Shown one piece after another: positions 8,812-36,839 of a DNA stretch of 64,000 bases. Origin of the DNA: Geothrix limicola (GTDB lineage: Bacteria; Acidobacteriota; Holophagae; Holophagales; Holophagaceae); NCBI RefSeq assembly GCF_030268085.1, contig NZ_BSDE01000004.1, positions 1-64,000 on the forward strand, given 5' to 3'. Each line of letters opens with the position of its first letter. Position 1 is the first letter of the stretch. The position numbers and the translations under genes are program-made. The notes under the pieces were generated by a model. That model was not told the DNA's origin. It searched no databases and was given only the letters and a program-made list of their open reading frames with translations.

Positions 8812-8820
8812 TTGTAAGAG

Positions 8821-8911: not shown

Positions 8912-9238
8912 TTAAGGAGCGACAGTAATAGAGGCAATGTGAATTTCACTGCTCGTGGTCTTGGACGTAGCAGTGACTCTGGCTGAACCTGGTGACGACG
9001 GAGCCGTGTAGAGCCCTTGAGGTGTGATAGTGCCCTGGTCAGTGGTCCAGTTGTAGTTTTCGACCGGCTGCGGGGCTAGCCCAATGATTTGGAATTGCTG
9101 GGTACTGCTGACCTTGACTGTTGTCTGAGAAGGAGAGATTTGAAGAGCATCGTAAACTGGAGCAGACGCTGAATTACCTCTATGCCCCGTACAGGCAAGA
9201 AGTCCAAGCAGAAGAACGGGGATAAGTGGAATTCTCAT
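8912..9238 (-). CDS. Ig-like (BIG2-type) domain lipoprotein (cassette gene)
   Basis: 108 aa. Lipobox LLAC with Cys16 predicts a lipoprotein. Residues about 32-105 form one bacterial Ig-like domain: ISPSQTTVKVSSTQQFQ, then WTTDQGTITPQGLYTAP and SARVTATS. Such domains usually sit at the cell surface and mediate contacts. ATG at 9238 has GGAGGA upstream at good spacing, so this cassette brings its own ribosome-binding site. The 110 bp upstream to the next attC hold nothing recognisable. Confidence 0.85.
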   Translation of the reverse strand: MRIPLIPVLLLGLLACTGHRGNSASAPVYDALQISPSQTTVKVSSTQQFQIIGLAPQPVENYNWTTDQGTITPQGLYTAPSSPGSARVTATSKTTSSEIHIASITVAP

Positions 9239-9348
9239 TTCTATCCTCCATTTGATGTTCTGGTTTGGATAATAACGCCCTACGAAGAATTCAGAGAATC
9301 GGAATGAAGATATGACCTGAACCTCGTTTCCGCCAGGCCATAGTTAAC

Positions 9349-9471
9349 GCCTAACGAGTGAGCTAAGCGGCCGCGCCTGCACCGAGGCGATGAGCGGAGC
9401 CGAGATAGCGAAATGCTGAGAGAGAACAGAAGGTAATGCAGGCGGGGTCCGACTTGAGCGGAGGGTTAGGC
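9349..9471 (-). repeat. attC, long type (123 bp)
   Basis: GCCTAAC to GTTAGGC, CTAAGCGG / CCGACTTGAG arms. Serves 9495-9887. Confidence 0.95.
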
Positions 9472-9494
9472 CGAAAGGGTGTTCGCATTAAGAA

Positions 9495-9887
9495 TTACCA
9501 GAAATAGAAACGGCGAGTTGAGCGAACAAGAGCTTGAAGAGAATCGTAGGTAGGACCTGACGCCCAGGTAATTCGCCCTGATCGTTTGTGAAGGCGGATG
9601 GGGTCCTTGTGGGGAGTGCCTTCGATACCGATTTGTGGAAAAGAAGACCAATATTCGCCCTCATCTTTGAGGTTTGCTGGGAATCCACATCCACTGACAT
9701 GAGTTTCGAAGTAAAACGAGATTATCTTTTCCGCATCAGTTTTAGATATTTCTGGTGCCAATTTGATTGCCAGGATTTCACGACCCTTTTCTCGAATCTG
9801 CGCTTGAGCAGGATTGGGTTGGCAGTTGAGCAGCGGTAGGACCGCCGTAAACACTGCTACTGAAAATTTGAAGGGTCTACCAGCCAT
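9495..9887 (-). CDS. Secreted protein of unknown function (cassette gene)
   Basis: 130 aa. Signal peptide at about 1-29, ending near AQAQ, with a Cys at 22 that is not a clear lipobox. The mature part contains SGCGFPANL and a C-terminal aromatic run (RRFYFW). No family recognised. The start at 9887 is close to the cassette edge. Confidence 0.7.
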   Translation of the reverse strand: MAGRPFKFSVAVFTAVLPLLNCQPNPAQAQIREKGREILAIKLAPEISKTDAEKIISFYFETHVSGCGFPANLKDEGEYWSSFPQIGIEGTPHKDPIRLHKRSGRITWASGPTYDSLQALVRSTRRFYFW

Positions 9888-9895
9888 TGGATGAG

Positions 9896-10019
9896 GCCTA
9901 ACGAATGAAGCTAACCGGCCCCGACTGCACCGAGGCGCTGAACGGAGCCGAGGAAGCGGGAAGTTGAGAGAGAGCGGAAGGCAATGCAGGCGGGGTCCGA
10001 GTTGAGCTAGGGGTTAGGC
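9896..10019 (-). repeat. attC, long type (124 bp), CTAACC/GAGTTG variant
   Basis: GCCTAAC to GTTAGGC. Serves 10029-10388. Confidence 0.95.
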
Positions 10020-10028
10020 CGGCCGGGA

Positions 10029-10388
10029 CTAGCTGCCAAGTGACAGGAGCAATGAAAAGATAGCAATCGCAGCCGCAAAATCGATAAATAAATAGATTCT
10101 GAGCTTTTTTTGAAATGAATTGCCCTCGGAGACAAGGGGGAGCCAATTCGGCGTGGCGAAGGCGAGTTGGATCGCCAAAATCGTGCCCGCAATATTTCCG
10201 GAAGCCGACCTACCTTCTGGTGGTTCCCAGGAGAAAATGGCCCATGGCTCGCCTTCGTTTCTCCAGATTTCTTTGTTGCTTGTATACATCGATTCGAAAA
10301 GATTGCCCATGACACGCGGTATCAACACCCATGTCGATATCCAAATAGGGAAGATCAGCAAGAGCCCAACAATTTGAACAATTTTCAT
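10029..10388 (-). CDS. Small membrane protein of unknown function (cassette gene)
   Basis: 119 aa. Helix at about 4-26 (IVQIVGLLLIFPIWISTWVL) and helix at about 98-118 (IYLFIDFAAAIAIFSLLLSL), with a soluble loop of about 70 residues that may face the periplasm. No family recognised. The other frames over this stretch contain no better candidate. Confidence 0.7.
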   Translation of the reverse strand: MKIVQIVGLLLIFPIWISTWVLIPRVMGNLFESMYTSNKEIWRNEGEPWAIFSWEPPEGRSASGNIAGTILAIQLAFATPNWLPLVSEGNSFQKKLRIYLFIDFAAAIAIFSLLLSLGS

Positions 10389-10393
10389 GGGCG

Positions 10394-10517
10394 GCCTAAC
10401 GAATGGAGCTAAGCGGCCGCGCCTGCACCGAGGCGCTGAGCGGAGCCGGGATAGCGAAATGTTGAGAGAGAGCGAGAGGCAATGCAGGCGGGGTCCGACT
10501 TGAGCTAGAGGTTAGGC
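10394..10517 (-). repeat. attC, long type (124 bp)
   Basis: GCCTAAC to GTTAGGC. Serves the cupin cassette. Confidence 0.95.
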
Positions 10518-10544
10518 CGACGATGTTAGATGTTGGACCTGAGA

Positions 10545-10994
10545 TTATTCTTGCCTGACGATATCGACCGAAATCTCTACTGCTGGAATCGTTCCTCTGT
10601 TCTCAAGCCAGTGCGTAGTGTTTCTATCTTCGGGCCAGCCGACTCCGGGCCCATAGTCTGTAGCGATGCCATTTCTATGATCGGTGATTGTGCCTTGCAA
10701 TATATAAACGGTTCCTGGTCGATCCTTATGATCGTGAATTGGACCGAAAACGCCTCCTGGCTCGATGGTTACCATCCGCATTCGAAGTTTGCGCCCGGCC
10801 ATGCCTTTGATCTCAGGGCCGAGATCAACCGTTGATAACAACTTCACCGTAACGCCCTTGGTTTCAGGGGCGACTTGCTCGTTGATCTTCGTGCTCTGCT
10901 CAGTGTAATCGTGAGGCATAAGAAAGGAATTCGTCGCTTTGGCTGGAGCACAAGCAAACAAGATTGCCAATGGAATCACAGAAAGGTTTCGCAT
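10545..10994 (-). CDS. Exported cupin-domain protein (cassette gene)
   Basis: 149 aa. Residues 1-20 form a signal peptide (ILFACAPAKA). The cupin core lies at about 70-145: metal-ligand candidates in GPIHDHKDRPGTVYILQG (motif 1), with the second motif weaker around WPEDRNTTHWLENRG. Cupins of this size are often periplasmic binding proteins or small oxygenase/isomerase-like enzymes; the ligand is unknown. ATG at 10994 has GAGG upstream. Confidence 0.85.
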   Translation of the reverse strand: MRNLSVIPLAILFACAPAKATNSFLMPHDYTEQSTKINEQVAPETKGVTVKLLSTVDLGPEIKGMAGRKLRMRMVTIEPGGVFGPIHDHKDRPGTVYILQGTITDHRNGIATDYGPGVGWPEDRNTTHWLENRGTIPAVEISVDIVRQE

Positions 10995-11018
10995 GTGGCA
11001 CCTCGGGATGTGGTTGAG

Positions 11019-11142
11019 GCCTAACGAATGAAGCTAAGCGGCCGCGCCTGCACCGAGACGACGAGCGGAGCCGAGATAGCGAAATGCTGAGAGAGAGCGG
11101 AAGGCAATGCAGGCGGGGTCCGACTTGAGCGGAAGGTTAGAC
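11019..11142 (-). repeat. attC, long type (124 bp), with GTTAGAC end
   Basis: Starts GCCTAAC, ends GTTAGAC; the cassette's other end (11583) is GGCTAAC, a near but not exact partner. Confidence 0.94.
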
Positions 11143-11176
11143 GGCTCGAGACGAACCTAGAGATGTTGAACTTACT

Positions 11177-11572
11177 CTAGGCTTTGATGGCATTGATGAG
11201 AAGTGGGAACAGAAGGAGCAGGAAAAGGCCTATCAGAATGAGATTGCCTTTTGTGGGGTTGAAGTCTGCGATTACAACCTTCCAAGGCAATCGAGCGACA
11301 TACCTGCCAATGACGATATCGAAAGTGGCCATAAACCCAGAAAGTGCCACACCAAGGAATAGCAGAGGCCCCGTTGAATGAAGGCCGAGAGTCGGGACGA
11401 GGAAATCGCAGACTCCGAAGGCCAGCAACGAGCCGGTAACAATGCTGACGCGTTGAGCGCGCAGCTTGCCTATGCGTGGGACGAGGAATCGCATTCTGGC
11501 GATGCCATGTATTGTCTCAACCCCGGCGAGGATGAGGCATATGCAAGTGACACGAAGAAGCGTTACCACCAT
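11177..11572 (-). CDS. Four-helix membrane protein of unknown function (cassette gene)
   Basis: 131 aa with four hydrophobic helices, at about 3-22, 43-61, 68-90 and 109-128, and a conserved-looking loop RFLVPRIGKLRAQR. I do not recognise a named family. Inner-membrane location is clear from composition. The start at 11572 is near the cassette edge. Confidence 0.72.
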   Translation of the reverse strand: MVVTLLRVTCICLILAGVETIHGIARMRFLVPRIGKLRAQRVSIVTGSLLAFGVCDFLVPTLGLHSTGPLLFLGVALSGFMATFDIVIGRYVARLPWKVVIADFNPTKGNLILIGLFLLLLFPLLINAIKA

Positions 11573-11582
11573 TGAGGGAGCC

Positions 11583-11706
11583 GGCTAACGAATGAAGCTA
11601 AGCGGCCGCGCCTGCACCGAGACGATAAGCGGAGCCGAGATAGCGAAATGATGAGAGAGAGCGGAAGGCAATGCAGGCGGGGTCCGACTTGAGCGAGAGG
11701 TTAGGA
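11583..11706 (-). repeat. attC, long type (124 bp), with GTTAGGA end
   Basis: Starts GGCTAAC, ends GTTAGGA. The same cassette's other end at 12121 is TCCTAAC, an exact complement. Confidence 0.95.
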
Positions 11707-11709
11707 GGC

Positions 11710-12111
11710 TCACTGGAAGAGACCCTTCTCGATCTTTACAGAACCATTTTGGTGAACCGAAACAGTTCTGGAGTCAGCCTTGCGTCCGAATTTCTCGGCG
11801 TAGAAGACAATGTAATAGACTTCACCACCAGTCTCTTCGTACCCACCTTCAGAGTAAATTCTCATTCCATTGGCTGAAAACCCGCTGAGTTGTCTTAGAT
11901 CGGATGCGGAGAGTGAAAAAGTTTTCTTGAAGACGCGGATTTCGACCTTGGTGAGACCCTTCGGGCCTTCCTGTCCCATAACTACGGCATCGCCTGACTC
12001 CACTTTGAAATTGGACCAGGGCGAAGAACAAACTTGTGAAGAGTGAAGAGGCATTGGAGTAAGAACAGCGAAGATTAGAGCGTTGATCAAGAGGGCGGCT
12101 TTCGCTGACAT
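11710..12111 (-). CDS. Secreted protein of unknown function (cassette gene)
   Basis: 133 aa. Signal peptide 1-25. The mature protein is beta-rich (AVVMGQEGPKGLTKVEIRVFKK, GGEVYYIVFYAEKFG) and ends KIEKGLFQ. No family recognised. The cassette's variant end reads TTAGGAGGCAACGCC-ATG, so the recombination core itself supplies a GGAGG ribosome-binding site. Confidence 0.72.
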   Translation of the reverse strand: MSAKAALLINALIFAVLTPMPLHSSQVCSSPWSNFKVESGDAVVMGQEGPKGLTKVEIRVFKKTFSLSASDLRQLSGFSANGMRIYSEGGYEETGGEVYYIVFYAEKFGRKADSRTVSVHQNGSVKIEKGLFQ

Positions 12112-12120
12112 GGCGTTGCC

Positions 12121-12244
12121 TCCTAACGAATGGGGCTAACCGGCCGCGCCTGCACCGAGACGATGAGCGGAGCCGAGATAGCGTGAAGCTGAGAGAGAGC
12201 GGAAGGCAATGCAGGCGGGGTCCGAGTTGAGCTGAGGGTTAGGC
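12121..12244 (-). repeat. attC, long type (124 bp), CTAACC/GAGTTG variant
   Basis: Starts TCCTAAC and ends GTTAGGC. Serves 12239-12565. Confidence 0.95.
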
Positions 12245-12565
12245 GCTGGGTTCAGCTCTTACGGTGCGTCGGCGCTGAATGAAATCTGAGACGATACTTG
12301 AAGCCAATATACCTGCGCCGCCCCAGATAATGATGAATACGAACTGCCAGGCGGCATATTCACCAGACGTACCGCCTTCAGCCCTAGCTGTATGCCAATA
12401 AAGGAAATATGCCAACAGAATGGGGACGCCGTAAAGAGCGATCCAGCGAATCAGTTCTGGCTTGATCCAGGAAGTTGCCAGGGCAGCAATGGCCGAAAGC
12501 ACTCCAATAACCACGATTCCTGAGATAGGTGAGAACGATAGAAGGAATTGGTCGAACATGTGCAT
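12239..12565 (-). CDS. Three-helix membrane protein of unknown function (cassette gene)
   Basis: 108 aa with helices at about 12-32, 38-57 and 72-92 and a basic C-terminal tail (QRRRTVR). The stop TAA is formed by the attC R box. Two in-frame ATGs (12565 and 12559) compete; neither has a strong ribosome-binding site. No family recognised. Confidence 0.7.
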   Translation of the reverse strand: MHMFDQFLLSFSPISGIVVIGVLSAIAALATSWIKPELIRWIALYGVPILLAYFLYWHTARAEGGTSGEYAAWQFVFIIIWGGAGILASSIVSDFIQRRRTVRAEPSA

Positions 12566-12572
12566 CAGTAGC

Positions 12573-12696
12573 GCCTAACGAATGAAGCTAAGCGGCCGCG
12601 CCTGCACCGAGACGATGAGCGGAGCCGAGATAGCGAAATGCTGAGAGAGAGCGGAGGGCAATGCAGGCGGGGTCCGACTTGAGCGGAGGGTTAGGC
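12573..12696 (-). repeat. attC, long type (124 bp)
   Basis: GCCTAAC to GTTAGGC. Serves 12706-13128. Confidence 0.95.
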
Positions 12697-12705
12697 CCTG
12701 CCGAG

Positions 12706-13128
12706 CTACTTGGTTATTGCTGGTAGGGCGCAAAAATAACCTCGCTCGGACTCAATAGTGATGGTGCCAGCCTCTGGGTCAAACTCCATTCTGGACTTGG
12801 ATCCTTCTTTGTCGGAGGTTCGAAAAACTATGTGGAGTACAACTTCACCTGAAAAGCTCGAATGGAATTCAATCAGCTTGGCATCTTCGACTGCTGATTG
12901 CGCGAGTTGTGGAATGCGAAATTTATCTTCGCCGTCTGACGGTCGAATCGAAGTGACCTTCCCGCTTTCTACCGTAAGGGTCATGTTGAGTTGGCCATGA
13001 ATTTTCGCGACCTTGGCCAGGGCCGGGTAACGAAAGAAGGGAAGGTGCAGGAGTTGATATTTTAGGGGAATTATCTGAGAGAACAGGCCCGTGGAAGCAA
13101 CAAGACTAATAATGAAGAATCGAATCAT
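12706..13128 (-). CDS. Exported TonB C-terminal-like domain protein (cassette gene)
   Basis: 140 aa from the ATG at 13128, which has GGGAG five bases upstream. Signal peptide of about 17 residues. Residues about 30-105 follow the TonB-C pattern: YPALAKVAKIHGQLNMTLTV, a GKVTSIRP turn, then AVEDAKLIEFH and a final beta strand. No proline-rich linker and no membrane anchor beyond the signal, so it is not a full TonB; such solitary domains are common but unstudied. The fold assignment is inference from pattern. Confidence 0.7.
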   Translation of the reverse strand: MIRFFIISLVASTGLFSQIIPLKYQLLHLPFFRYPALAKVAKIHGQLNMTLTVESGKVTSIRPSDGEDKFRIPQLAQSAVEDAKLIEFHSSFSGEVVLHIVFRTSDKEGSKSRMEFDPEAGTITIESERGYFCALPAITK

Positions 13129-13159
13129 TGTGGCTCCCAATTTGCGTTCACGCGGGGTG

Positions 13160-13283
13160 GCCTAACGAATGAAGCTAAGCGGCCGCGCCTGCACCGAGGC
13201 GATGAGCGGAGCCGGGAAAGCGAAATGATGAGAGAGAACGGAAGGCAATGCAGGCGGGGTCCGACTTGAGCGGAGGGTTAGGG
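13160..13283 (-). repeat. attC, long type (124 bp), with GTTAGGG end
   Basis: Starts GCCTAAC, ends GTTAGGG; matched by CCCTAAC at 13869. Confidence 0.95.
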
Positions 13284-13298
13284 CGACCAGGACTTGAT

Positions 13299-13832
13299 TC
13301 ACTTGGTGATTGGTGTTCCGAGAGTGCCACCATGGAAAGGTGCGAGTGTTCGGAAACAATTATGTTTAAGATATACAAATTTGTTATCACCCAACTCGGT
13401 TCTTAATCTGGTGTACGCATTATTTTGAAGTTCATTTTTTCGGGTTAGAAAATTAACGGGGAAACCTGGAGCTGTCCATGTTGAGGACCCACTCCGACTC
13501 AAAGGGTGATTCTTTTTCCAGATAATTTCGTTGAATCGGCATTCGGCCAACAAGTCACTGTATTTTTCCTTGTACTCGATAACAACAGAGGTGATCGAAT
13601 CGATTTCTGAGTGAGTCAACTCTAAAGATTCCGAGAGGGAGTACAGAATTAGAGCTGATTCTTCTGGTTTGCCAGCAGCTCTCCGCCGGGCTGCGTAGTC
13701 GGCATTTTTGGATGCCATATCAAACAGCCAATCAAATCCAATCTGCTCAGAAGGTGAAATGGACAATATGGGACTATCAGCAGCTTGAATGACAGAAAGG
13801 AGGGTTGTGATTAGAAGGGCGCTACGGATCAT
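13299..13832 (-). CDS. Secreted protein of unknown function (cassette gene)
   Basis: 177 aa. Signal peptide 1-17 (LLITTLLSVIQA). The mature protein is helical in the middle (DYAARRRAAGKPEESALILYS) and carries cysteines at CRFNEI and HNCFRT that could pair in the periplasm. ATG at 13832 has AAGGA upstream. No family recognised. Confidence 0.72.
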   Translation of the reverse strand: MIRSALLITTLLSVIQAADSPILSISPSEQIGFDWLFDMASKNADYAARRRAAGKPEESALILYSLSESLELTHSEIDSITSVVIEYKEKYSDLLAECRFNEIIWKKNHPLSRSGSSTWTAPGFPVNFLTRKNELQNNAYTRLRTELGDNKFVYLKHNCFRTLAPFHGGTLGTPITK

Positions 13833-13868
13833 GGCTGAGTCCTTGGAGGTTTCTGGGGGAGGAGTGAG

Positions 13869-13992
13869 CCCTAACGGATGAAGCTCACCGGCCCCGCCTG
13901 CACCGAGGCGCTGAACGAAGCCGAGTTAGTAAGAAGTTGAGAGAGAACGGAAGGCAATGCAGGCGGGGTCCGAGTGCAGCGGAGTGTTAGGC
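13869..13992 (-). repeat. attC, long type (124 bp), CTCACC/GAGTGC variant
   Basis: Starts CCCTAAC, ends GTTAGGC. The arm change CTCACCGG is compensated by CCGAGTGCAG on the other arm. Confidence 0.95.
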
Positions 13993-14505
13993 ATTGGCAC
14001 CGAAAACTTCGAATTCGGCGTCGAGTTCATTCAGGTTGCTGATGAAGGTGGTAGATAGCGGAACACTGGCGAACTTAACGCTGAAACCGTCCGAGAAGAC
14101 GTGATGATCCCAGGCTGCAAGGATTTCGCCTGAGCAGGAAATGAAGTATGGATCGAATTCGATGATTTTAAGACTACTTTGAAGGGCAATCATCGAGGAA
14201 ACAGTGCCCTCAACCGACTCGCTTGAGACGATCGCCGCAGAAGAAGCCGAACGTTCAATTCCAAGAAGGTCAGAGGGACTTCCATACCGGGGAAAAACGA
14301 ACCAGTTGGGCTCGAGTGCGAATAAGGCACGCAGCACGTTCTTCTGATTTTCCTCAGGCTCATCCTCTTGGAAGTGAATCGTCACAATTCGACGGCGATG
14401 ACGGTCTGAGGAAAGTTGAGAACCAATTCCAACATTCCTCGGTGACAGAGTGATTCCACTCTGTGCGAGGAAACGGATGAACTCTGCTTCGGTTTGATGA
14501 CTCAT
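13987..14505 (-). CDS. Soluble protein of unknown function (cassette gene)
   Basis: 172 aa from the ATG at 14505; the longer frame would need a TTG. No signal peptide or membrane helix. Contains ALEPNWFVFPRYGSPSDLLG and ends in an acidic segment (NELDAEFEVFGANA). The stop is the TAA of the attC R box. No family recognised. Confidence 0.72.
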   Translation of the reverse strand: MSHQTEAEFIRFLAQSGITLSPRNVGIGSQLSSDRHRRRIVTIHFQEDEPEENQKNVLRALFALEPNWFVFPRYGSPSDLLGIERSASSAAIVSSESVEGTVSSMIALQSSLKIIEFDPYFISCSGEILAAWDHHVFSDGFSVKFASVPLSTTFISNLNELDAEFEVFGANA

Positions 14506-14515
14506 TGATTCCAAT

Positions 14516-14641
14516 GCCTAACGAATGAAGCTAACCGGCCCAACCTGCGACCGAAAAGCTAAACAGAGACGAGAAAGACAGGAACAAGAGAGAGGAAAGC
14601 AGGCCGTGCAGGTTGGGTCCGAGTTGAGCGGAGGGTTAGGG
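14516..14641 (-). repeat. attC, long type, most diverged interior (126 bp), with GTTAGGG end
   Basis: Starts GCCTAAC, ends GTTAGGG; arms CTAACCGG / CCGAGTTGAG are normal, but the interior (CCCAACCTGCGACC ... CAGGTTGGG) differs from all other sites. Matched by CCCTAAC at 15644. Confidence 0.93.
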
Positions 14642-14672
14642 CGCCGATGGTTTCGTAGGACTGTGAGCTTGG

Positions 14673-15638
14673 TTACTTGGCGATAATTGTTCCAGGACCA
14701 GCAAGACATATCGGCAGGTCAAGCCAGTTTGGTTTATCGGGCATTAATACAATTGCTTGAGCATTTTCGTTGAACGAGACGAGGGTGTAAGCAAATCGTG
14801 TTTGTCGGATTCCTTTTGTATAGGGAGATTTGTAACTGAGGCAACCATAGACTACCGGCGTGATCATTTTGAAATCTTTCCCCTCAAGTGCAGCCTCGAT
14901 ATCGGCGTTTGGGATAAAGACCATCTGGTTGAACAGCTTAATTGCTTCTGGAAATATTGCCTCCGCCTCGTGACCGGCATGTTTAATGATGGTGTCGCAG
15001 TAATCGGCCATACGCTCCTCCATCGAAGGACTCCCTGGACCAAGTAACGCAATTTCGGCGTGGAAACTCACGCTCGTTGCTGGCGAATGGCCATGGTTTC
15101 TTGAAGTGCTCTCTACGTTGAAATAAATTCCTTCAACGCCCAAGTGCGTCTTTCCTCTAGTGGGCTTTCCAAGTCGACACTCAACGGAAACCCAGGCACG
15201 GCTTTGGGCTTCGTTTGTTTCTCTGGCGACGAGGACCGCGTTCTGGGCAGCGTTGGTGGCCTTGTTATTCAGGCGAAGTGAGTAAAGGAGCGCGAACAGC
15301 CCACCTGCACTCAAAATTAGCCCCATGAGCGAAGTGAAGTAATTACGCTTGGCCCACTTGACCATGCTCTCCTGGGCATCCAGGTTGCGACTAGCGTAGC
15401 TGTCCGGTTTATCAGTTTGCTGCTGATCCTGCCCAATGACTTGTGTCTGAGCAGTGGGTTTGAAGCGGTCTTCGGTCACAGGAGGTTTAGTTGACTGTGT
15501 CTGCTGACTAACTAAAGTTTGACTCTGAGATTTAAGTGTTTGTGCGCTGGCAACATTGCTAAGTAATAGACCGAGCACCAGCAAAGCCATTATTTTCCAA
15601 ACAGGAAATTGTCGTAAAACCGGATGATGGTTGCTCAT
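14673..15638 (-). CDS. Two-helix envelope protein of unknown function, Gln/Thr-rich linker (cassette gene)
   Basis: 321 aa from the ATG at 15638; the longer open frame begins inside the neighbouring attC and is rejected. N-terminal signal or helix at about 13-32, then a Gln/Thr/Ser-rich stretch (about 33-75), a membrane helix at about 97-118 and a coiled NNKATNAAQNAV segment. A soluble C-terminal domain starts RAWVSVECRLG. Proteins with this helix-'SRAWVSV' layout are widespread and uncharacterised. It is the largest gene in the array. Confidence 0.75.
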   Translation of the reverse strand: MSNHHPVLRQFPVWKIMALLVLGLLLSNVASAQTLKSQSQTLVSQQTQSTKPPVTEDRFKPTAQTQVIGQDQQQTDKPDSYASRNLDAQESMVKWAKRNYFTSLMGLILSAGGLFALLYSLRLNNKATNAAQNAVLVARETNEAQSRAWVSVECRLGKPTRGKTHLGVEGIYFNVESTSRNHGHSPATSVSFHAEIALLGPGSPSMEERMADYCDTIIKHAGHEAEAIFPEAIKLFNQMVFIPNADIEAALEGKDFKMITPVVYGCLSYKSPYTKGIRQTRFAYTLVSFNENAQAIVLMPDKPNWLDLPICLAGPGTIIAK

Positions 15639-15643
15639 GAGAG

Positions 15644-15767
15644 CCCTAACGAATGAAGCTAAGCGGCACCGCCTGCACCGAGACAATGAGCGGAGCCGAG
15701 ATAGCGAAATGCTGAGAGAGAACGGAAGGCAATGCAGGCGGGGTCCGACTTGAGCGGAGGGTTAGGG
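15644..15767 (-). repeat. attC, long type (124 bp), with GTTAGGG end
   Basis: Starts CCCTAAC, ends GTTAGGG; the other cassette end (16299) is GCCTAAC, so here the R boxes differ by one base. Confidence 0.94.
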
Positions 15768-15793
15768 CGCCGCGAGTGACCATTGGGCCTCTT

Positions 15794-16291
15794 TCAATCG
15801 AAGTTGGAATCCAGACGGATTTCTGAAACCCTGCCTGTGCTTTTATTGATTGTAATGATCAATTCATTGTAATCGCCGAGGCCAGGATCACCTGAGTACC
15901 AAAGCTCTGTACCAGATTTGGCCGGATTCTCCGAGCGGGGTAGACCTAGGATTTTGAGGACTTCAGCCTTGGACATGCCAACCCGAATTCCTTGGTCGAG
16001 AGGAATCGATGGCGACCAAACATCGATAGTCATTAGGGACTCATGACCACCTTTTAATTCCTCGAAGGTGAAGCGTGCACCTGAATAGGCGAAGACAATC
16101 CGAGCCCCATAGCCAACAATCGTGCCTTCATTCCACTTCAGGGAGACCTTGAGGGGTTTTCCGAATTTCTCGACTGTTGCCGTTTTCGATGCACCTAATC
16201 GAAGCCCTTTGAAGGAAGGATCCAACTTTTCAGACCCCGGTGAAGGAGCCTGCGAGATGAAGGCTAGGGCCATGAATTGCGGAAGGAACAT
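15794..16291 (-). CDS. BamE/SmpA-like two-repeat exported protein (cassette gene)
   Basis: 165 aa. Hydrophobic start (residues 1-15) suggests export. Two similar units follow: GLRLGASKTATVEKFGKPLK at about 29-48 and GIRVGMSKAEVLKILGLPRS at about 101-120. The second is the hallmark of the SmpA/OmlA (BamE-like) fold, in which a G-M-S helix precedes a Gly-x-Pro turn. A role in outer-membrane or ligand binding is inference. There is no lipobox, unlike true BamE. Confidence 0.75.
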   Translation of the reverse strand: MFLPQFMALAFISQAPSPGSEKLDPSFKGLRLGASKTATVEKFGKPLKVSLKWNEGTIVGYGARIVFAYSGARFTFEELKGGHESLMTIDVWSPSIPLDQGIRVGMSKAEVLKILGLPRSENPAKSGTELWYSGDPGLGDYNELIITINKSTGRVSEIRLDSNFD

Positions 16292-16298
16292 TCGGCGG

Positions 16299-16420
16299 CC
16301 TAACGAAGAAGCTAAGCGGCCGCGCCTGCGCCGAGGCGATGAGCGAAGCCGGGATAGCAGAATGATGAGAGAGAGCGAAAGGCAATGCAGGCGGGGTCCG
16401 ACTTGAGCGAGGGGTTAGAG
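16299..16420 (-). repeat. attC, long type (122 bp), with GTTAGAG end
   Basis: Starts GCCTAAC, ends GTTAGAG; matched by CTCTAAC at 17213. Confidence 0.95.
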
Positions 16421-17206
16421 GGCCTGGGCGGAATCAATGCTCTGTTCTCTTAGAAAATTTTGCAGTGCTAGGTATTGGGCTTTGTAACGGTCGCTCTTAA
16501 TTTCTTTTGGACTGAACCAAAGGCTTATCTCGTGAACCTTCTCACTCCTTTCTCTGAAGAACAGAGGTGAGAGCTGGTGAAGGATATCAATTGATGTTTG
16601 ATGCAATTTTTCATTTTGTTGAGTAAAAGCATTGATCGATAGTCTCATTGAGCCAATGATTACATCAACAAGGCTGCAGAAATGTGATTGTCCTATCGCC
16701 GTATAGTGAAAACCGAGTACGCGCTCTAGTTTCCGTTCGTCGCTATATGGTAGGTTTCCAGTTAACCCGACAGCCAGTTTTTCTCTTAAGTGTTCATCAA
16801 TCTTTTTGTCTGAGAATCGGTCTATCAGGACCAAGCCTGCCTCATTCGGGCGAGCCAACCAGCAATCAAAATGGAAACATAGCGTATTAATGCCGAACCT
16901 ACGAGCCTCATCGGATGATTTAGCTATGTCGTGAAGAAGAAGATTGATTAGCAAAATGCATTGATGATTGACTGCCGCCTGAATCACTTGCTTTTTCAAT
17001 TCAATAAATTGTTCGTGAGAGAACCCTTGAGGCCCAGGGTTGAACTTCAAAATGTAATCTCGAGGTACACCAAGGGATTTCCTTATTCCTTCGATTTCAG
17101 AATGCAGAGCTTTGGCATTGGATGCAGGAATGACTAGGCCGCCATAAACGAAGAAATCCCCGCTCGATTTTTCTAGATTTGTTTCATCGCAGTAGAGCAA
17201 ATGCAT
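16415..17206 (-). CDS. DUF3800 family protein (cassette gene)
   Basis: 263 aa, close to the family's usual length. Signature parts: LLYCDETN at the N-terminus (acidic Asp-Glu pair), FFVYGGLVI, LVLIDRFSD in the centre and HFCSLVDVIIGSM near 195. DUF3800 has an RNase-H-like fold with conserved acidic residues and often travels with mobile elements and defence genes; its activity is not established. The gene ends at the attC R box (stop TAA). The start at 17206 lies at the cassette edge. Very AT-rich compared with the host genes. Confidence 0.9.
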   Translation of the reverse strand: MHLLYCDETNLEKSSGDFFVYGGLVIPASNAKALHSEIEGIRKSLGVPRDYILKFNPGPQGFSHEQFIELKKQVIQAAVNHQCILLINLLLHDIAKSSDEARRFGINTLCFHFDCWLARPNEAGLVLIDRFSDKKIDEHLREKLAVGLTGNLPYSDERKLERVLGFHYTAIGQSHFCSLVDVIIGSMRLSINAFTQQNEKLHQTSIDILHQLSPLFFRERSEKVHEISLWFSPKEIKSDRYKAQYLALQNFLREQSIDSAQAL

Positions 17207-17212
17207 GAGGGC

Positions 17213-17278
17213 CTCTAACGAATGAAGCTCAGCGGACCAGGCGCTGGCGCCTGGGTCCGCTGCAGCGAGAGGTTAGGC
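17213..17278 (-). repeat. attC, short type (66 bp), of an ORF-less cassette
   Basis: Starts CTCTAAC and ends GTTAGGC. Confidence 0.95.
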
Positions 17279-17506
17279 GCGGCGTGAAATGGGTGCGAGT
17301 GCGACCCGAATTGCCGCGCCAAGAGTATTGAGAACTGAAAAGCAAAGAACGAGTGATGCAGCAAGAAGGCTTGAAGTGTCGGGCGTGGACCCAGGTTACC
17401 AACGCTGATTAGGAATGGCTGGGCGTTTCTGGGTGGGCCATGGCGATTGGTGTGACGTTGCGGCGCAATGGGACAAGCGCTCCAGCAGCGAGAAAAGCTT
17501 GGTTAC
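17279..17506 (-). other. ORF-less cassette
   Basis: About 228 bp between two attC sites. The longest minus-strand ATG frame is about ten codons. It is unlike the repeated cassette of copies A-D, although it also uses the short attC. It may carry a promoter or small RNA, or be a dead cassette; I see no clear -35/-10 pair. Confidence 0.7.
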
Positions 17507-17630
17507 GCCTAACGAATGAAGCTAAGCGGCCGCGCCTGCACCGAGGCGACGAGCGGAGCCGGGATAGCGAAATGATGAGAGAGAACGGAAGGCGATGCAG
17601 GCGGGGTCCGACTTGAGCGGAGGGTTAGAC
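17507..17630 (-). repeat. attC, long type (124 bp), with GTTAGAC end
   Basis: Starts GCCTAAC, ends GTTAGAC; partner end GGCTAAC at 18067, the same near-match pair as 11019/11583. Confidence 0.94.
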
Positions 17631-17645
17631 CGCGAACCACGGCGC

Positions 17646-18053
17646 TCATTTTGCACTAGTTTCGGTTGTTACAGGGCGATAGGTGCCGAAAGTCCAGAGG
17701 TGCCCTTCGATGTCTCGTGCATGGTACTCGCGGGAGCCGAAATCGGTATCACGAGGTGGGCTGATGATCTCTGCGCCAGCCGATTGCGCTCGTTCAAAAT
17801 GCTCGTCGAGGTGGTCGACGAAGACGTAAATGGCTTGGGTTGAAGCTCCGAGAGAGTTAGGGCTTGTCATGGATTCTTCTGGTCTGACAGACCCAAGCAT
17901 GACGATGTTTTCGCCGAGCTTGAGTTGGGCATGTCGTACGAATGGCCCCGAGTCCGGGACGGAGAACAATTCCTCGAAGCCAAATGAGGCACACAGCGAT
18001 TGAATCGCGGTGCGAGCTTCTGTGTATCGGAGTATTGGGAAGATTGTCTGCAC
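17646..18053 (-). CDS. VOC / glyoxalase-like protein, PhnB-like type (cassette gene)
   Basis: 135 aa. Starts QTIFPILRYTEARTAIQSLCASFGFEE and ends with the YHARDIEGHLWTFGTYRP strand, a VOC pattern. The central FVDHLDEHFERAQSAGAEIISPPRD is typical of the PhnB-like and bleomycin-resistance branches. Start is GTG at 18053. Substrate unknown; cytoplasmic. Confidence 0.88.
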   Translation of the reverse strand: MQTIFPILRYTEARTAIQSLCASFGFEELFSVPDSGPFVRHAQLKLGENIVMLGSVRPEESMTSPNSLGASTQAIYVFVDHLDEHFERAQSAGAEIISPPRDTDFGSREYHARDIEGHLWTFGTYRPVTTETSAK

Positions 18054-18066
18054 GCTTCACCTAGCG

Positions 18067-18190
18067 GGCTAACGAATGTGGCTAACCGGCCGCGCCTGCA
18101 CCGAGACGCTGAACGAAGTCGGGATAGCGAGAAGTTGAGAGAGAGCGGAAGACAAAGCAGGCGGGGTCCGAGTTGAGCTAAAGGTTAGGC
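18067..18190 (-). repeat. attC, long type (124 bp), CTAACC/GAGTTG variant
   Basis: Starts GGCTAAC, ends GTTAGGC. Belongs to the first cassette after attI. Confidence 0.95.
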
Positions 18191-18196
18191 GCCTGT

Positions 18197-18451
18197 TCAT
18201 GGTTTTCGGCTTTTCTTCACAATGAAGAACAGAGCCCATACCGCCGCTGCAATGGACCACTTGAGTAAAGGTTCATTTCCTCGTACCAGAATCCTGAGAA
18301 ACCAGTGTTCGGAGTGTAGGAAATGGGACTTCAGCCATAGCTCGATCCCGGTGAGGAGAAGAACGAATGGGACAATGGCTAGAAGACAATAGATCAGGGA
18401 CCGACGCTGCCATCGAATGAATCCTTTGATCTCTGATGCCGGAATAGTCAT
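18197..18451 (-). CDS. Two-helix membrane protein, first cassette of the array
   Basis: 84 aa. Helices at about 19-38 (IYCLLAIVPFVLLLTGIEL) and 61-78 (KWSIAAAVWALFFIV). Unknown function. The ATG at 18451 is only three bases from the attI recombination core, so the leader and ribosome-binding site must come from the attI side. As the first cassette it is probably the newest insertion and the best expressed. Confidence 0.75.
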   Translation of the reverse strand: MTIPASEIKGFIRWQRRSLIYCLLAIVPFVLLLTGIELWLKSHFLHSEHWFLRILVRGNEPLLKWSIAAAVWALFFIVKKSRKP

Positions 18452-19703: not shown

Positions 19704-20358
19704 GGCCGATTTGAAAAAGAGGGTCAGCCACGGATGAACACGGATGGACACAGATAAATGGAAATTGAGGTGATTGGAGGTGGGTGATCTTGGCTTTTCA
19801 GGGCCAGGTGAGTTTCTGGTTTTTTTGAGTGGATGCCGGAGAGATGCAAGTCAGGGGGCGGGGGGCAAGCTCAGTCCTGAAAACATGGCTCAAAGCGACG
19901 ACGCAAGGCCTGCACGGGCTTTCTTCGGAGACCAAGCGCCCAAAGAAATCGCCGCGGCGCTAGCAACGACGGGGCGCGGCGATCTTACGAAGCCATCACC
20001 GTCCATCTCCGTTCATCACCGGTTTCTTGCTTTGTCGCTTGTCCGGCGCGTCAGTCGGGATAGGGAGCGCCGGATGGGGGTGTTTCCTCGGCTTTTAAGG
20101 CGCGCCATGGTTTCGGCTGGTCGACGCTTGAAGCCGGAGGCAGAGGTGTGGGGCCACCCTTCGATCCCGTGAACTTGGTTCCAAGCGGCATCAGGCCGGC
20201 ATGCACAGGCTTCCTCTGGCACCAAGCGGTCGATAAGTTCGCCACCCGCACGACCCGCGAAGGGGCCGGCGATTCCGAGCAGGCAGAACGATCCTTCGCA
20301 CCCATCCGCGTTCATCCGCGGCCCATCCCTTCTTCTCCAGGGGGAGTAACCTCGTCCC
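19704..20358. repeat. Repeat-rich stretch without a convincing gene
   Basis: Holds word-type repeat arms: GCCACGGATGAACACGGATG at 19725, CATCACCGTCCATCTCC at 19994 with the rest of that arm to about 20031, and CATCCGCGTTCATCCGCGG at 20303. A 132-aa + frame at 19774-20172 has no ribosome-binding site, is built partly from these repeats and is not accepted. Confidence 0.7.
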
Positions 20359-22730: not shown

Positions 22731-22859
22731 AGGAATGTTGAAAGCGGAGGAGAGCGGAGAAGCTGAGGAGAGCGGAAGATGCACGACCCCTCACTGCCAA
22801 CCCTCTGCTGTCCTCCGCCCCTCAGCTGCCCTCCGCTTATGGAATTCTTTTGATCCTTT
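22731..22859. repeat. Palindromic repeat family 'GGAGAGCGG', copy 1
   Basis: Starts AAGGAATGTTGAAAGCGGAGG and ends TCCGCTTATGGAATTC, with inverted arms of AGAGCGGA and TCCTCCGC words. Copy 2 follows 171 bp later. Confidence 0.85.
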
Positions 22860-22901
22860 GCGTCTGGACAGGGAGGCGGCGGAGTGCGGGAGTGATCAAA
22901 A

Positions 22902-23030
22902 AGGAATGTTGAAAACGGAGGAGAGCGGAGAAGCTGAGGAGAGCGGAAGACGCACGGCCCCTCACTGCCAACCCTCCGCTGTCCTCCGCCCCTCAGCTCT
23001 CCTCCGCTTATGGAATTCCTTTTGTTCCTC
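22902..23030. repeat. Palindromic repeat family 'GGAGAGCGG', copy 2
   Basis: Nearly identical to copy 1; arms and centre are conserved with a few substitutions. The pair fills the 331 bp between two convergent genes. A third copy is at 36711. Confidence 0.85.
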
Positions 23031-24835: not shown

Positions 24836-24955
24836 TCACCGCAGAGAGCGCAGAGAACGCGGAGAACGCGGAGAAAAGCTTGGGAAGCCAGGGATGGACA
24901 CGGATGAGGTCGGTGATGCGACCTCATTCGCGCACATTCGCGTCATTCGCGGTTA
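24836..24955. repeat. Mosaic word-type repeat (GCAGAG, CACGGATG and ATTCGCG words)
   Basis: Left arm CACCGCAGAGAGCGCAGAG... (24838-24877), centre GGATGGACACGGATGAGG (24892), right arm CATTCGCGCACATTCGCGTC... (24925-24954). The two arms use different words, unlike the simple copies elsewhere. Confidence 0.75.
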
Positions 24956-26107: not shown

Positions 26108-26120
26108 GGGAACCTCCAAA

Positions 26121-26204
26121 AGAATGGAACCGCGAATTTCGCGAATGGGCGCGAATGAAAACGGGTTATTGATTCGCGTTCATTCGCGTCATTCGCGGTT
26201 TCTT
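26121..26204. repeat. Palindromic word-type repeat (CGCGAAT words) inside the ser operon
   Basis: Left arm AGAATGGAACCGCGAATTTC..., three CGCGAAT words at 26131, 26140 and 26150; right arm with ATTCGCG words (26172-26198), ending GGTTTCTTTT. Can fold into a long hairpin between serA and serC. Confidence 0.8.
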
Positions 26205-27077
26205 TTAAGCTTTGAAATCCTGAAGGATCAGCACCACCTCGTCGCCGATGCGGCCGAGGTTCTCTTTGGAGCTGGCGCCGATGTGGGGGGCCATGAAGAC
26301 GTTGGGGGCGCCGAGCAGGGGGCAGTCCGCCGGGGGCGGGTCGCTGGGCCAGACGTCCGTGCCGTAGGCGCGGAGCTTGCCGCTGGTGAGGGCGGCCACC
26401 ACGTCGGCCTCGACGATGCACTTGCCGCGGCCGGTGTTGATGAGGATGGCGCCATCCTTCATCTTGGCGATGAAGGCGGCGTTGACCATGCCGCGGGTCT
26501 CGTCCGTGAGCGGCGTGTGCATGCTGATGACGTCGGCCTTGGCGGCCAGCTCATCGAGGCTCACGAGCTTGGCGATGGGGTGCTCCTTGAGGAAGGGATC
26601 GAAGGCGATCACCTCCATGCCGAAGGCCTGGGCGCGCTTGGCGACTTCGCTGGCGATGGCGCCGGCGCCGATGAGGCCGAGGGTCTTCTTGAAAAGCTCC
26701 GTGCGCTTCAGCTCGTTCTTGAGGAACTTGCCCTCCTTCATGGAGGTGTGGGCCTCGATGAGGCGCGCGGGGATGGCGACCATGAAGGCCATGGCCATTT
26801 CCGCCACGGCCACGCTGCTGGCGCGGGGCGTGTTCACGGCCTTGATGCCCTTTTCGGCGCACACCTTTTTGTCCACGTTGTCCATGCCCACGCCGCCGCG
26901 GATGACGAGCTTGAGCTTGGGGGCCCTGGCCACGAGGTCGGCGTCGACCTTGGTCTTCGAACGGACGAGGAGGACCTCGGCCTCGCCGAGGGTGGCCATG
27001 TCGGAGCTGACGGTGCCGAAGGCCGCGAGGCGCTCGGGCAGTTTGGCGTCGAAGGCGTCTGCGATGAGGATGTTCAT
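26205..27077 (-). CDS. serA: D-3-phosphoglycerate dehydrogenase, short type without ACT domain
   Basis: 290 aa. Oxidises 3-phosphoglycerate with NAD as the first step of serine synthesis. Seen: NAD-binding loop LIGAGAIASEVAKRAQAFGM, RGGVGMDNVD before it, NTGRGKCIVEADVV, and catalytic His in MAPHIGASSKENLGRIG. It lacks the C-terminal serine-binding ACT or ASB domain, so it should not be inhibited by serine in the usual way. GGAGA ribosome-binding site at 27077. The DUF1015 gene ends 11 bp upstream. Confidence 0.95.
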   Translation of the reverse strand: MNILIADAFDAKLPERLAAFGTVSSDMATLGEAEVLLVRSKTKVDADLVARAPKLKLVIRGGVGMDNVDKKVCAEKGIKAVNTPRASSVAVAEMAMAFMVAIPARLIEAHTSMKEGKFLKNELKRTELFKKTLGLIGAGAIASEVAKRAQAFGMEVIAFDPFLKEHPIAKLVSLDELAAKADVISMHTPLTDETRGMVNAAFIAKMKDGAILINTGRGKCIVEADVVAALTSGKLRAYGTDVWPSDPPPADCPLLGAPNVFMAPHIGASSKENLGRIGDEVVLILQDFKA

Positions 27078-32270: not shown

Positions 32271-33826
32271 CGATTCTCGCTGCGAGCGAGGATCAGCCGG
32301 GTGAGGTCGGCCTTGGCTTCCGGGCTCAGCCGCAGCTTCCGGCCCTCGGCTTCGCGGAAGTATTCCTCGGGATCGCGGCAGAGGCCGTCGGGCGTGGGAG
32401 TCAGGCCCTTGCGGGCGCGGGCGGCATTCAGGAAGTGGTAGGGCTCCTTGGCCAGCTCGGGGCTCTGCAGGAAGTGGCGGAAGGTCCACCAGCCGCCCAG
32501 CACGAACCAGATGCCCAGCAGGGCCACGGCCCGGTGCTGCAGGCGTCGCATGATGTCGGGCGTGTGGCGCACCTTCTGCCAGGCCACGCCCGCCCAGAGG
32601 TTGAGCCCGATGACGGCGGCGGTCAGCAGGAGGGTGCCGGTCCAGCCCAGGCTGCCCCAGCCCAGGCCCGTGAGGGCGAGGACGGGCGGCGCGAGCAGCA
32701 CGCTGAAGAGCAGGTTGAGGTGCAGCATGTAGAGCAGCAGGGATTCGTTGCTGGCAGCCTTGATGGGGTTCGAGCCCGCCCCGTGGGGGCGCACCAGTTC
32801 GATGGCGCCCATGAACGACCCGCCGAGGAGGATCCAGCCCAGACGCGCCGCGACGCTGGGCAGGGTGGTGTTGGCGATGGCACCGAGTTCGCTGTAGGTG
32901 AAGGCGCCCGCCCGGCCGTGCAGCATCCAGATGCCGTTCTGCTGGATCCACCGGCCGCCCCAGAGCCAGGCCTGCTGGGCCGACGAGCCCCAGGCCAGCA
33001 GCCCCGCGCCGATGAGGGCCAGGAGCGCGAGGAACCGGGGTTCGCTCCAGCGGGCCTGGCCGACAGACGCGGTGGTCGGGCTTTGCCCGTCCGCCGCGTG
33101 GGGGAGCGCGAGGGGGGACGCAGAGGGTGCGGAGCTGCCGGGCGGTCCACCCTCGCCCCTGATGGCCTCCACGCGCAGGTGGCGGTAGAGGCCGCCGAGG
33201 AAGGCGCCGAAGGCGGGGAAGGCGAACCAGGGGAAGAGCGGGAAGAGGGCCTGCACGCCGCGGTCCGCGTTGCCATTGAAGAGCCCGCGGATGGGCAGCC
33301 ACAGACCGTCCGCGACGCCCGTGGCCCAGAGGTGGGGCGACACCAGGGGCACGAAGAGCGCGAGGATCAGGGCGAGGCCCGTGAAGATCCGCGGGTTTCG
33401 CACCAGCCGGGCCAGGCCCTGGAGGATGAGCAGGGAGAAGACGATGCACTGCAGCACGTCGACCTTGAAGAGCTCCCGGGCCTTCTGGGCCGTGTTGAGC
33501 ACGGTCCAGTCCGCGGCGGTGATGCCGGGCGCGTGCAGGGCGTAGGCGCAGAGCAGGATGAAGCCCAGGCGGCGGGCCGTGTCGGGCCAGAAGGGCCGCA
33601 GCGTGCCGTCGGTTCGGAAGGTCGAAATGGCCAGGCTGCATCCCGCGGCCATGGTGAAGCTGGGCGCCACCAGGCCGTTCAGGTAGTTCAACCAGTCCGG
33701 GCGCAGCCCCGGGTGCAGCCAGACGTTCACCACGTGCACTTCGATCATCACGATCACCGCCCAGCCCCGCAGCTGGTCGATCCAGTCGCAGCGGCGGGAG
33801 GGGGTCAGGTCGTTCCATAAACTCAT
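32267..33826 (-). CDS. HGSNAT/DUF1624-like multi-helix membrane protein (possible acyltransferase)
   Basis: 519 aa from the ATG at 33826 (GGGAG upstream). The N-terminus RRCDWIDQLRGWAVIVMIEVHVV, with the Arg and His of the first helices, is typical of the heparan-alpha-glucosaminide acetyltransferase / YeiB / acyltransferase-3 superfamily. About ten membrane helices follow, and the last ~65 residues are soluble. The Leu/Ala/Gly-rich helices fit an inner-membrane acyl transfer to a sugar or envelope component; substrate unknown. Confidence 0.8.
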   Translation of the reverse strand: MSLWNDLTPSRRCDWIDQLRGWAVIVMIEVHVVNVWLHPGLRPDWLNYLNGLVAPSFTMAAGCSLAISTFRTDGTLRPFWPDTARRLGFILLCAYALHAPGITAADWTVLNTAQKARELFKVDVLQCIVFSLLILQGLARLVRNPRIFTGLALILALFVPLVSPHLWATGVADGLWLPIRGLFNGNADRGVQALFPLFPWFAFPAFGAFLGGLYRHLRVEAIRGEGGPPGSSAPSASPLALPHAADGQSPTTASVGQARWSEPRFLALLALIGAGLLAWGSSAQQAWLWGGRWIQQNGIWMLHGRAGAFTYSELGAIANTTLPSVAARLGWILLGGSFMGAIELVRPHGAGSNPIKAASNESLLLYMLHLNLLFSVLLAPPVLALTGLGWGSLGWTGTLLLTAAVIGLNLWAGVAWQKVRHTPDIMRRLQHRAVALLGIWFVLGGWWTFRHFLQSPELAKEPYHFLNAARARKGLTPTPDGLCRDPEEYFREAEGRKLRLSPEAKADLTRLILARSENR

Positions 33827-33856
33827 GACTCGAACTCCCATGTCCTGAGGCTTTTC

Positions 33857-33890
33857 ATCACTGTCCATCACCGTTCATCACCGGTTCCAT
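33857..33890. repeat. Left arm of a perfect 34-bp inverted repeat around the GxxExxY gene
   Basis: Three ~10-bp words (ATCACTGTCC, ATCACCGTTC, ATCACCGGTTCC). Exact reverse complement of 34298-34331. The gene's last ten codons and stop lie inside this arm. Confidence 0.95.
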
Positions 33891-34283
33891 GTTTTCCACA
33901 GCTCTGCTGTCACTCCGGTCCAGCATCAGGCGGCGGATTTGGATCCTTGGTTTGTCGAAGTTCATCAGCAGGCAGATTTTCAATCCGGTGGCTTTGAGGT
34001 AGTTCAGGCATTGGGCCAGATGGACGTCATCGAGGTCCCGGCAGGCTTTGAGCTCGACGAGGACCTGGTCTTCAATAAGCAGATCAGCCACATACTCACC
34101 CACCTTCACCCCGTCGTAGTGGACGACGATGCTGTGCTGCTGGGAGAGGTTGAACCCTGCCTTCCTGAGTTCATGAACCAGGGCGTTCTCGTAGACCTTC
34201 TCCAGGAAACCCGGGCCAAGCTCATTGGCCACGCGGTAGGCGCAGCCGATGATCCTGGATGTGAGTGGGTCGTCTTCTGGCAT
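33858..34283 (-). CDS. GxxExxY family protein (PDDEXK-like), inside an inverted repeat
   Basis: 141 aa. Family motif G-F-L-E-K-V-Y within NELGPGFLEKVYENAL (about 21-36), then YDGVKVGEYVADLLIEDQVLVELKA with the Asp, Glu and Lys expected of a PDDEXK nuclease core, and QCLNYLKATGLKICLLMNF. The family is common in multiple copies per genome; its function is not established. The C-terminal tail MEPVMNGDGQ and the stop codon are encoded by the repeat arm, so the protein is partly built from the repeat. The start at 34283 is chosen by the family N-terminus. Confidence 0.92.
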   Translation of the reverse strand: MPEDDPLTSRIIGCAYRVANELGPGFLEKVYENALVHELRKAGFNLSQQHSIVVHYDGVKVGEYVADLLIEDQVLVELKACRDLDDVHLAQCLNYLKATGLKICLLMNFDKPRIQIRRLMLDRSDSRAVENMEPVMNGDGQ

Positions 34284-34297
34284 GGAAGGCTAAAAGA

Positions 34298-34331
34298 ATG
34301 GAACCGGTGATGAACGGTGATGGACAGTGAT
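34298..34331. repeat. Right arm of the perfect 34-bp inverted repeat
   Basis: ATGGAACCGGTGATGAACGG... reads toward GATAAAAAA. The preceding AAAAGAATGGAACCG is also found at 26118 in front of the CGCGAAT-word repeat, showing shared edges with different words. Confidence 0.95.
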
Positions 34332-34356
34332 AAAAAAACTGAATATCGATGTTTAT

Positions 34357-36679: not shown

Positions 36680-36710
36680 GTGCGCCAGATTTAGACAGGG
36701 AATTTCGAGA

Positions 36711-36839
36711 AAGGAATTTTTGAAGCAGAGGAGAGCGGAGAGGCGGAGGAAAGCGGAGAAAAATCAGGAGCCACGAGGCGTTTCTCAGCTCTCCTCCGCT
36801 CCTCCGTTTTACTCTGCTTATTCCATTCCTTTGATCCTT
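36711..36839. repeat. Palindromic repeat family 'GGAGAGCGG', copy 3
   Basis: Starts AAGGAATTTTTGAAGCAGAGG and ends TTATTCCATTCCTTTGATCC. More diverged than copies 1 and 2. Lies between the convergent comF and ene-reductase genes, where it may stop transcription. Confidence 0.85.

Follow-up and report, generated by a model that had tools for sequence, protein, structure and literature searches.

The described system that comes closest to the element analyzed here is that of the REP sequences and REPINs with their RAYT (TnpA-REP) proteins (PMC3116915; PMC8266576). In both systems, dispersed extragenic palindromes are cognate to a gene that is flanked by the same palindrome, the class of the enzyme matches the class of the repeat, inverted doublets are able to form hairpins, and the enzyme gene remains single-copy and mostly fixed at its locus while the palindromes multiply. 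The enzymes are unrelated in fold, RAYTs being HUH/Y1 transposases whereas GxxExxY proteins are PDDEXK nucleases of RecB/Cas4-like type. The arms of the latter system also differ in being composed of approximately three tandem words of 9-10 bp, and the loop of the palindrome is usually where the gene lies. The comparison with REP/RAYT was made in an initial annotation of this DNA, and is apt with regard to both architecture and evolution. The GxxExxY system is nevertheless not filed as REP/RAYT, because an HUH/Y1 enzyme was tested for and found to be absent, and because the repeat grammar differs. No intact Y1 transposase was found in the home genome, which has merely a 35-codon Y1_Tnp fragment, and a RAYT was rejected as the mover on this ground. 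The novelty of the system rests on its enzyme fold and repeat grammar, and its way of life resembles that of REP/RAYT.

Other known systems share a more limited set of features. RecB, Cas4 and lambda exonuclease (4ic1, 3slp, 3syy) have in common with GxxExxY proteins the predicted fold, the D...E-x-K active site and the QxxxY motif, but GxxExxY proteins are about 120-150 aa in length, carry no helicase domain and are linked to repeats. MITEs and DDE insertion sequences likewise are short inverted-repeat elements occurring in gene-bearing and gene-less forms, whereas GxxExxY units possess neither a DDE transposase domain nor an excess of target-site duplications, and have internally tandem-repeated arms whose words evolve with the enzyme. 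The PDDEXK homing endonuclease I-Bth0305I (3r3p), which appears low in our list of fold matches, is also a small PDDEXK nuclease within an element that displays presence/absence alleles without an excess of target-site duplications. However, the arms and the many gene-less cognate palindromes have no counterpart there, and no single conserved target sequence was found for GxxExxY units. In those portions of the searchable open-access literature available to us, in which mentions of GxxExxY/PF13366 include a gene-table entry and a passing remark, no role for the family was found, and strings of arm words yielded no relevant paper in the searchable literature. This widespread nuclease-palindrome system is therefore undescribed in literature of that scope, which leaves subscription papers and most preprints uncovered.

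The window, by which we mean the entire 64,000-nucleotide stretch of Geothrix limicola DNA that was analyzed, contains a GxxExxY gene on the reverse strand at 33858-34283, encoding a 141-aa protein assigned as a RecB/Cas4-like PDDEXK nuclease by its matches to PF13366 and TIGR04256, its active site and its fold match. The segments at 33857-33890 (ATCACTGTCCATCACCGTTCATCACCGGTTCCAT) and 34298-34331 are exact reverse complements, confirming the perfect 34-bp inverted repeat previously noticed around this gene. When stretched to 44 nt, the arms retain 93% complementarity and constitute the top-ranking inverted repeat of the window. The left arm comprises three tandem words, ATCACTGTCC-ATCACCGTTC-ATCACC, followed by GGTT towards the gene, and the right arm comprises AACC followed by GGTGATGAAC-GGTGATGGAC-AGTGAT. 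These words also occur in the arms of orthologous genes in three other genomes (G009, G026 and G040), and have 19 tandem-word matches in the home genome. The left arm does supply the last ten codons of the gene and its stop (MEPVMNGDGQ*), as had been pointed out in the initial annotation. Because the gene ends within the arm at only 32 of 146 loci, and because the arm-encoded tail is disordered in the predicted model (pLDDT about 55), this C-terminus was rejected as a functional feature and is incidental. The home genome (4.23 Mb) has six GxxExxY matches, five of which, including one truncated gene, reside within matched arms whose words are all different. Four of its gene-bearing elements (L001, L003, L005 and L006) lie within runs of housekeeping genes; from the translations of the neighbors, we take three to be located between ftsA and ftsZ, purH and alaS, and queC and queF, respectively, and one beside mutS.

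The window protein matches PDDEXK_3 (PF13366) with an E value of 5e-41 and GxxExxY (TIGR04256) with one of 1e-42, and its scores of 140.1 and 144.8 bits lie above the respective curated cut-offs of 22 and 35; no domain other than PDDEXK_3 was matched in the gene. Its AlphaFold model has a mean pLDDT of 90.8. Among 61 sequences, the G..E..Y motif (containing E28), D67, E77 and Y95 are invariant, and K79 and Q91 are conserved in at least 90%. The structures nearest to the predicted fold are Cas4 SSO0001 (4ic1, Z 10.0), lambda exonuclease (3slp, E 5.6e-4), LHK-Exo and AddAB, with Holliday junction resolvases following after these top matches. Thus, the hallmarks of a RecB/Cas4-like PDDEXK nuclease (an E/D/ExK active site, QxxxY and the fold) are present, although the fold is predicted rather than solved and no convincing solved relative was found by sequence. 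Nuclease activity is expected because the active-site residues are conserved, which is an inference made without biochemical data. No cysteine occurs among the invariant or nearly invariant columns of the 61 sequences, and therefore no iron-sulfur cluster of the Cas4 type is expected. Assignment as Cas4 proper was rejected, as the four conserved cysteines of that cluster are not among these columns.

A usual arm, read from the outside inwards, consists of an A-tract, 4-8 nt, ACC or GCC, and then about three words of 9-10 bp, examples of which are CGCGAATGG, CACCAAGA, GCGGAGGAAA, ACAGGATTA and CGCAGATGAA. Gene-less copies are laid out as an arm, a loop and a mirror arm, often with a T-tract thereafter. 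At most loci a single palindrome whose ACC ends point outward accommodates the gene in its loop, and at a minority the arms are reversed or a complete palindrome lies on each flank. The window gene belongs to the rarer reversed type, in which the ACC end of each arm faces the gene. Copies with a single arm occur as well.

That repeats of the same grammar but with different words lie across the window had been proposed from its sequence, and four gene-less palindromes together with single arms bear this out. A palindrome with the GCGGAGGA word resides at 22742-22838; its cognate GxxExxY gene is the one next to mutS in this genome (L005). It is followed at 22899-23023 by a second, tandem GCGGAGGA palindrome with AAAAGGAATG...CATTCCTTTT-like ends. 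The palindrome at 26128-26200 carries the CGCGAATGG word and is the cognate of L003; at the orthologous position, three genomes (G001, G014 and G033) carry a CGCGAAT GxxExxY gene. The fourth, at 36710-36832, again has the GCGGAGGA word, and many relatives are empty there. The single arms are a CGCGAAT arm at 24926-24951 and an arm at about 19994-20033 with the GGTGAT word that it shares with the window gene.

Arms of this kind are a general property of the family. Under one fixed scoring, 33 of 35 loci in the genus reach an arm score of at least 33, compared with 1 of 296 control placements within the window. At a strict threshold, matched arms, each with approximately three 9-10-bp words in tandem, are found at 97 of the 117 GxxExxY loci in the genus, a set that includes one locus (L182) left unscored for being too near a contig end; approximately one fifth miss this threshold, and several loci below it are weakly positive. 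Outside the genus, 87 loci representing some 20 further phyla (archaea among them) and viral contigs were scored, and 56 have arms (shifted-position controls, 1/282); so do 20 of 30 loci drawn evenly from a second phylum, that of G057 (query locus L069, titled Verrucomicrobia; controls, 2/90). It had been suggested that the arms be sought around GxxExxY genes in related genomes, and by these counts most GxxExxY genes have them. Eighty of the loci outside the genus are those closest to a Geothrix-based profile and hence were selected by similarity; the evenly drawn sample was added against this bias and covers one phylum only. Arms are present also at loci titled Methanosarcinales, on a Sphingomonas plasmid, where the gene lies between fabD and fabG, and on a Gemmatirosa plasmid. 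A Fusobacteria plasmid locus did not pass the arm test, and no arms were found in one subfamily (L230-L232, IRQTSFQIHSYLG.GHLEKVYEN), which may have a different role. GxxExxY genes are carried by 40 of 47 genomes of the genus and by 26 of 59 genomes sampled from another phylum. The loci derive mostly from draft genomes and metagenome-assembled genomes, not all GxxExxY genes were fetched, and the first loci had already been seen when the thresholds, patterns and word classes were set.

The similarity of arm words tracks the identity of the proteins, a covariation that the initial annotation had proposed to test. For 146 loci the Mantel r is 0.52 (at most 0.05 in 1000 shuffles); outside the genus alone it is 0.37 (shuffles at most 0.13), and between genus and outside loci it is 0.29, against 0.19 for shuffles. 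Such shuffles leave in the shared ancestry of protein and arms within one element, which is offset in part by comparisons made at the same locus and within the same genome. At three orthologous loci, which from translations are presumably located beside pyrG, between genes for a thiolase and a hydroxyacyl-CoA dehydrogenase, and between purH and alaS, respectively, there are alleles with different words in both arms, and the proteins fall into matching groups. Protein identities are 0.78/0.81 within and 0.68 between CGCCAAG and CACCAAG alleles, 0.81/0.79 within and 0.62 between CGCAGAT and CACAGATT alleles, and 0.71/0.81 within and 0.56 between CGCGAAT and CGCGAAA alleles. Moreover, at one orthologous gap the gene-less words fit the arms of the nuclease resident in their genome more closely than the arms found in other genomes (p no greater than 2e-4; p 0.007 at a third site). 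Two loci at which the word switches from CGC to CAC show parallel differences at positions 33 and 95 of L180; as candidate specificity residues, these positions provide only a lead, with phylogeny uncontrolled.

The number of palindromes also follows the cognate gene. Tandem-word patterns were counted over 47 genomes, without a census of hairpins. CGCGAAT matches number 86, 34, 59, 35 and 13 in carriers of the cognate gene, with a median of 0 in non-carriers (p 7e-5); GTGATGNAC matches number 19, 13, 24, 3 and 5, again with a non-carrier median of 0 (p 2e-4); and the CGCCAAG medians are 38.5 and 8, respectively (p 9e-4). A reversed control pattern gave zero or single matches. GAT-word counts likewise separate GAT-word carriers from others among 20 mostly distant genomes, including archaea (p 0.001), the exception being one genome with 80 matches and seven GxxExxY matches; these genomes, mostly of other phyla, were reached via the 80 profile-closest loci. 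Carrier lists were compiled by eye from fetched arms, the counts include the arms of gene-bearing copies (a few per genome), and the rank tests take related genomes as independent. Since not all GxxExxY genes were fetched, some carriers were counted as non-carriers, which weakens the associations. In some genomes, for example G004, G009 and G010 for CGCGAAT and G013 for CGCCAAG, cognate-like palindromes are present although no cognate gene was identified; the genes may have been lost or not fetched, or another agent may spread the repeats.

We think it probable that a GxxExxY protein and the palindromes bearing its own word form a two-part system in which the enzyme spreads the repeats in trans, although binding, cutting and transfer have not been shown. 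Under this hypothesis, a small nuclease resembling RecB, Cas4 and lambda exonuclease would recognize a palindrome in each arm of which its own 9-10-bp word is repeated about three times in tandem, each word spanning approximately one helical turn. Its gene, single-copy and mostly locus-fixed, would lie between arms of that word, and in trans the enzyme would maintain and spread gene-less palindromes of the same word in intergenic gaps. We infer that it might bind the word array on the palindrome, probably as an extruded hairpin, and cut or resect there, after which a copy of the palindrome could enter a new gap or replace an older palindrome through repair of a break or of replication. Copying by host repair, initiated by the nuclease, is proposed because there is no excess of target-site duplications, no strand-transfer domain and no intact Y1 transposase; host repair must be invoked because a RecB-like fold offers a cutter and not a joiner. 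The nuclease is the likeliest driver because its family predicts the word, its gene lies between copies of that word, its presence predicts palindrome number and its fold cuts DNA. That the GxxExxY nuclease itself drives or processes the repeats is strongly suggested by inference but not shown, and the lack of biochemistry and the failure of gene-bearing units to multiply within genomes stand against the proposal.

Alleles at orthologous sites bear on how the palindromes arrive. The window site, between two co-directional genes (33826-34356), is reduced to 24-34 bp in empty-site species, and in other relatives it holds either a gene with the same word (G009, G026 and G040) or a gene-less palindrome with another word. 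At a second site (26109-26208), the gap measures only 13-15 bp in four genomes, is occupied by a CGCGAAT gene-bearing element in three and, in the remaining genomes, contains palindromes without a gene, which belong to at least six word classes. The empty-site alleles sought in the initial annotation are therefore present beside filled ones; with arms around most genes and words that follow the protein, none of the three conditions named there for a refutation was fulfilled. In a flank-based tree the word classes occur in scattered positions, and sisters do not agree with each other (G018 is empty and G014 gene-bearing; G022 has CGCCAAG and G020 CGCGAAA). No target-site duplications were found in excess, direct flanking repeats being no longer than in shuffled pairs at 117 loci, and none is claimed despite the duplicated look of single cases at the window site (L136, 12 bp). 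A second gap, about 1020 bp from the second site, holds palindromes with different words in different species (L234, L236, L241, L243, L244, L246, L249, L252 and L261), from which it follows that gaps differ in how frequently they are occupied.

These alleles leave room for a possible, though less favored, explanation based on homing or gene conversion, in which the nuclease cuts its own-word or older palindromes and the cut site receives a copy of the gene or of a cognate palindrome, so that palindromes would mainly replace one another at fixed gaps rather than move to new ones. Such replacement would account for the inserts, of at least six word classes, that occupy precisely the same gap (the second site) in 26 genomes out of the 30 for which this allele was read, with sisters differing in class, for the similar occupation of the gap approximately 1 kb away, for the presence of the gene in three genomes and of a gene-less palindrome with the same word in two at a single gap, and for the lack of excess target-site duplications. 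However, the truly empty gaps beside filled ones indicate that new gaps have been entered or left, and at one site the classes are not alike in their outer flanks, suggesting separate entries. The alleles are compatible both with entry into empty gaps and with replacement of older palindromes. Gene copies are single per genome and class, the closest within-genome pair among those fetched sharing 67% identity, and copies of one class are mostly found at one shared locus across species, from which we conclude that inheritance and loss of the gene mostly occur at a fixed locus, and that it is the palindromes that turn over. Thus, the original description of an autonomous gene-plus-ends unit with gene-less relatives is upheld as to the arms and the relatives, but the word autonomous overstates the case, as it is the gene-less palindromes that multiply.

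We regard as doubtful the alternative that unidentified machinery spreads the palindromes, with GxxExxY as a passenger or controller that, for example, regulates itself through operator arms. In its favor, strand transfer is not a known activity of the nuclease fold, no cognate gene was identified in some genomes rich in palindromes, and gene copies mostly stay at their loci. Against it, the word goes with the GxxExxY protein in many phyla and also when alleles of a single locus are compared, palindrome number follows the cognate gene, and of a Y1 transposase the genome has merely the 35-codon fragment. Least probable is a host function, whereby the palindromes would be bidirectional terminators or mRNA stabilizers under selection and the nuclease an adapted surveillance cutter of hairpins: A/T tracts often border the hairpin, at the sites read, copies in operons are located after a stop codon and before the next ribosome-binding site, and the fold is similar to that of DNA-end nucleases, but the same gaps are often empty, close relatives carry different words at one gap, and a terminator needs no specific word in common with a nuclease.

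If the two-part nuclease-palindrome hypothesis is correct, the dispersal of repeats can be driven by a DNA-end nuclease fold. We lean, with less assurance than for the system itself, towards the broader proposal that GxxExxY proteins and their word palindromes constitute a large class of mobile DNA in bacteria and archaea, in which the nuclease copies or rewrites dispersed palindromes of its own tandem word and evolves in concert with all of them; this would be a second solution to the RAYT way of life, unrelated to the HUH RAYTs. Each GxxExxY protein gains a predicted substrate that can be read from its own flanks, which makes its function directly testable, and the words provide a natural library of matched protein-DNA specificities. 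An explanation is also obtained for one type of short palindrome that is dispersed in environmental genomes.

Further observations concern variants of the repeats and their surroundings. Phage records yielded no match, and no PHROGs or PADLOC family match was obtained, the latter library comprising described defense systems only. Chrysochromulina parva virus has a GxxExxY gene in its gene listing (PMC12085832). GxxExxY genes of the IMG/VR viral contigs L118-L121 are flanked by inverted repeats of another grammar, such as GGTCGCTTCGC...TTGAAATTTTACTTAAAATTT, and members of one clade (LTERIIGCAFKVANTLGHG; L169, L181, L193 and L226) have GC-rich palindromes on both sides, for example CATGGGGGGCGCCAGGGCCGCG, instead of tandem words. 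Many CGCGAAT palindromes carry a small hairpin, CGCCCTTCGGGCG or a close variant, between the words of one arm and in a similar place (home-genome copies L309, L314, L318, L322, L327-L330, L332 and L335). Rfam has no matches in the window between 18000 and 40000. At 19729-20320, CACGGATGAA-like arms lie about 550 bp apart with no recognized GxxExxY gene between them and with the GGTGAT single arm inside the pair; this is possibly a decayed gene-bearing element. Positions 1-18200 of the window are occupied by a long integron-like cassette array with about 25 attC-like repeats (GCCTAAC...GTTAGGC) spaced 0.4-1.8 kb apart.
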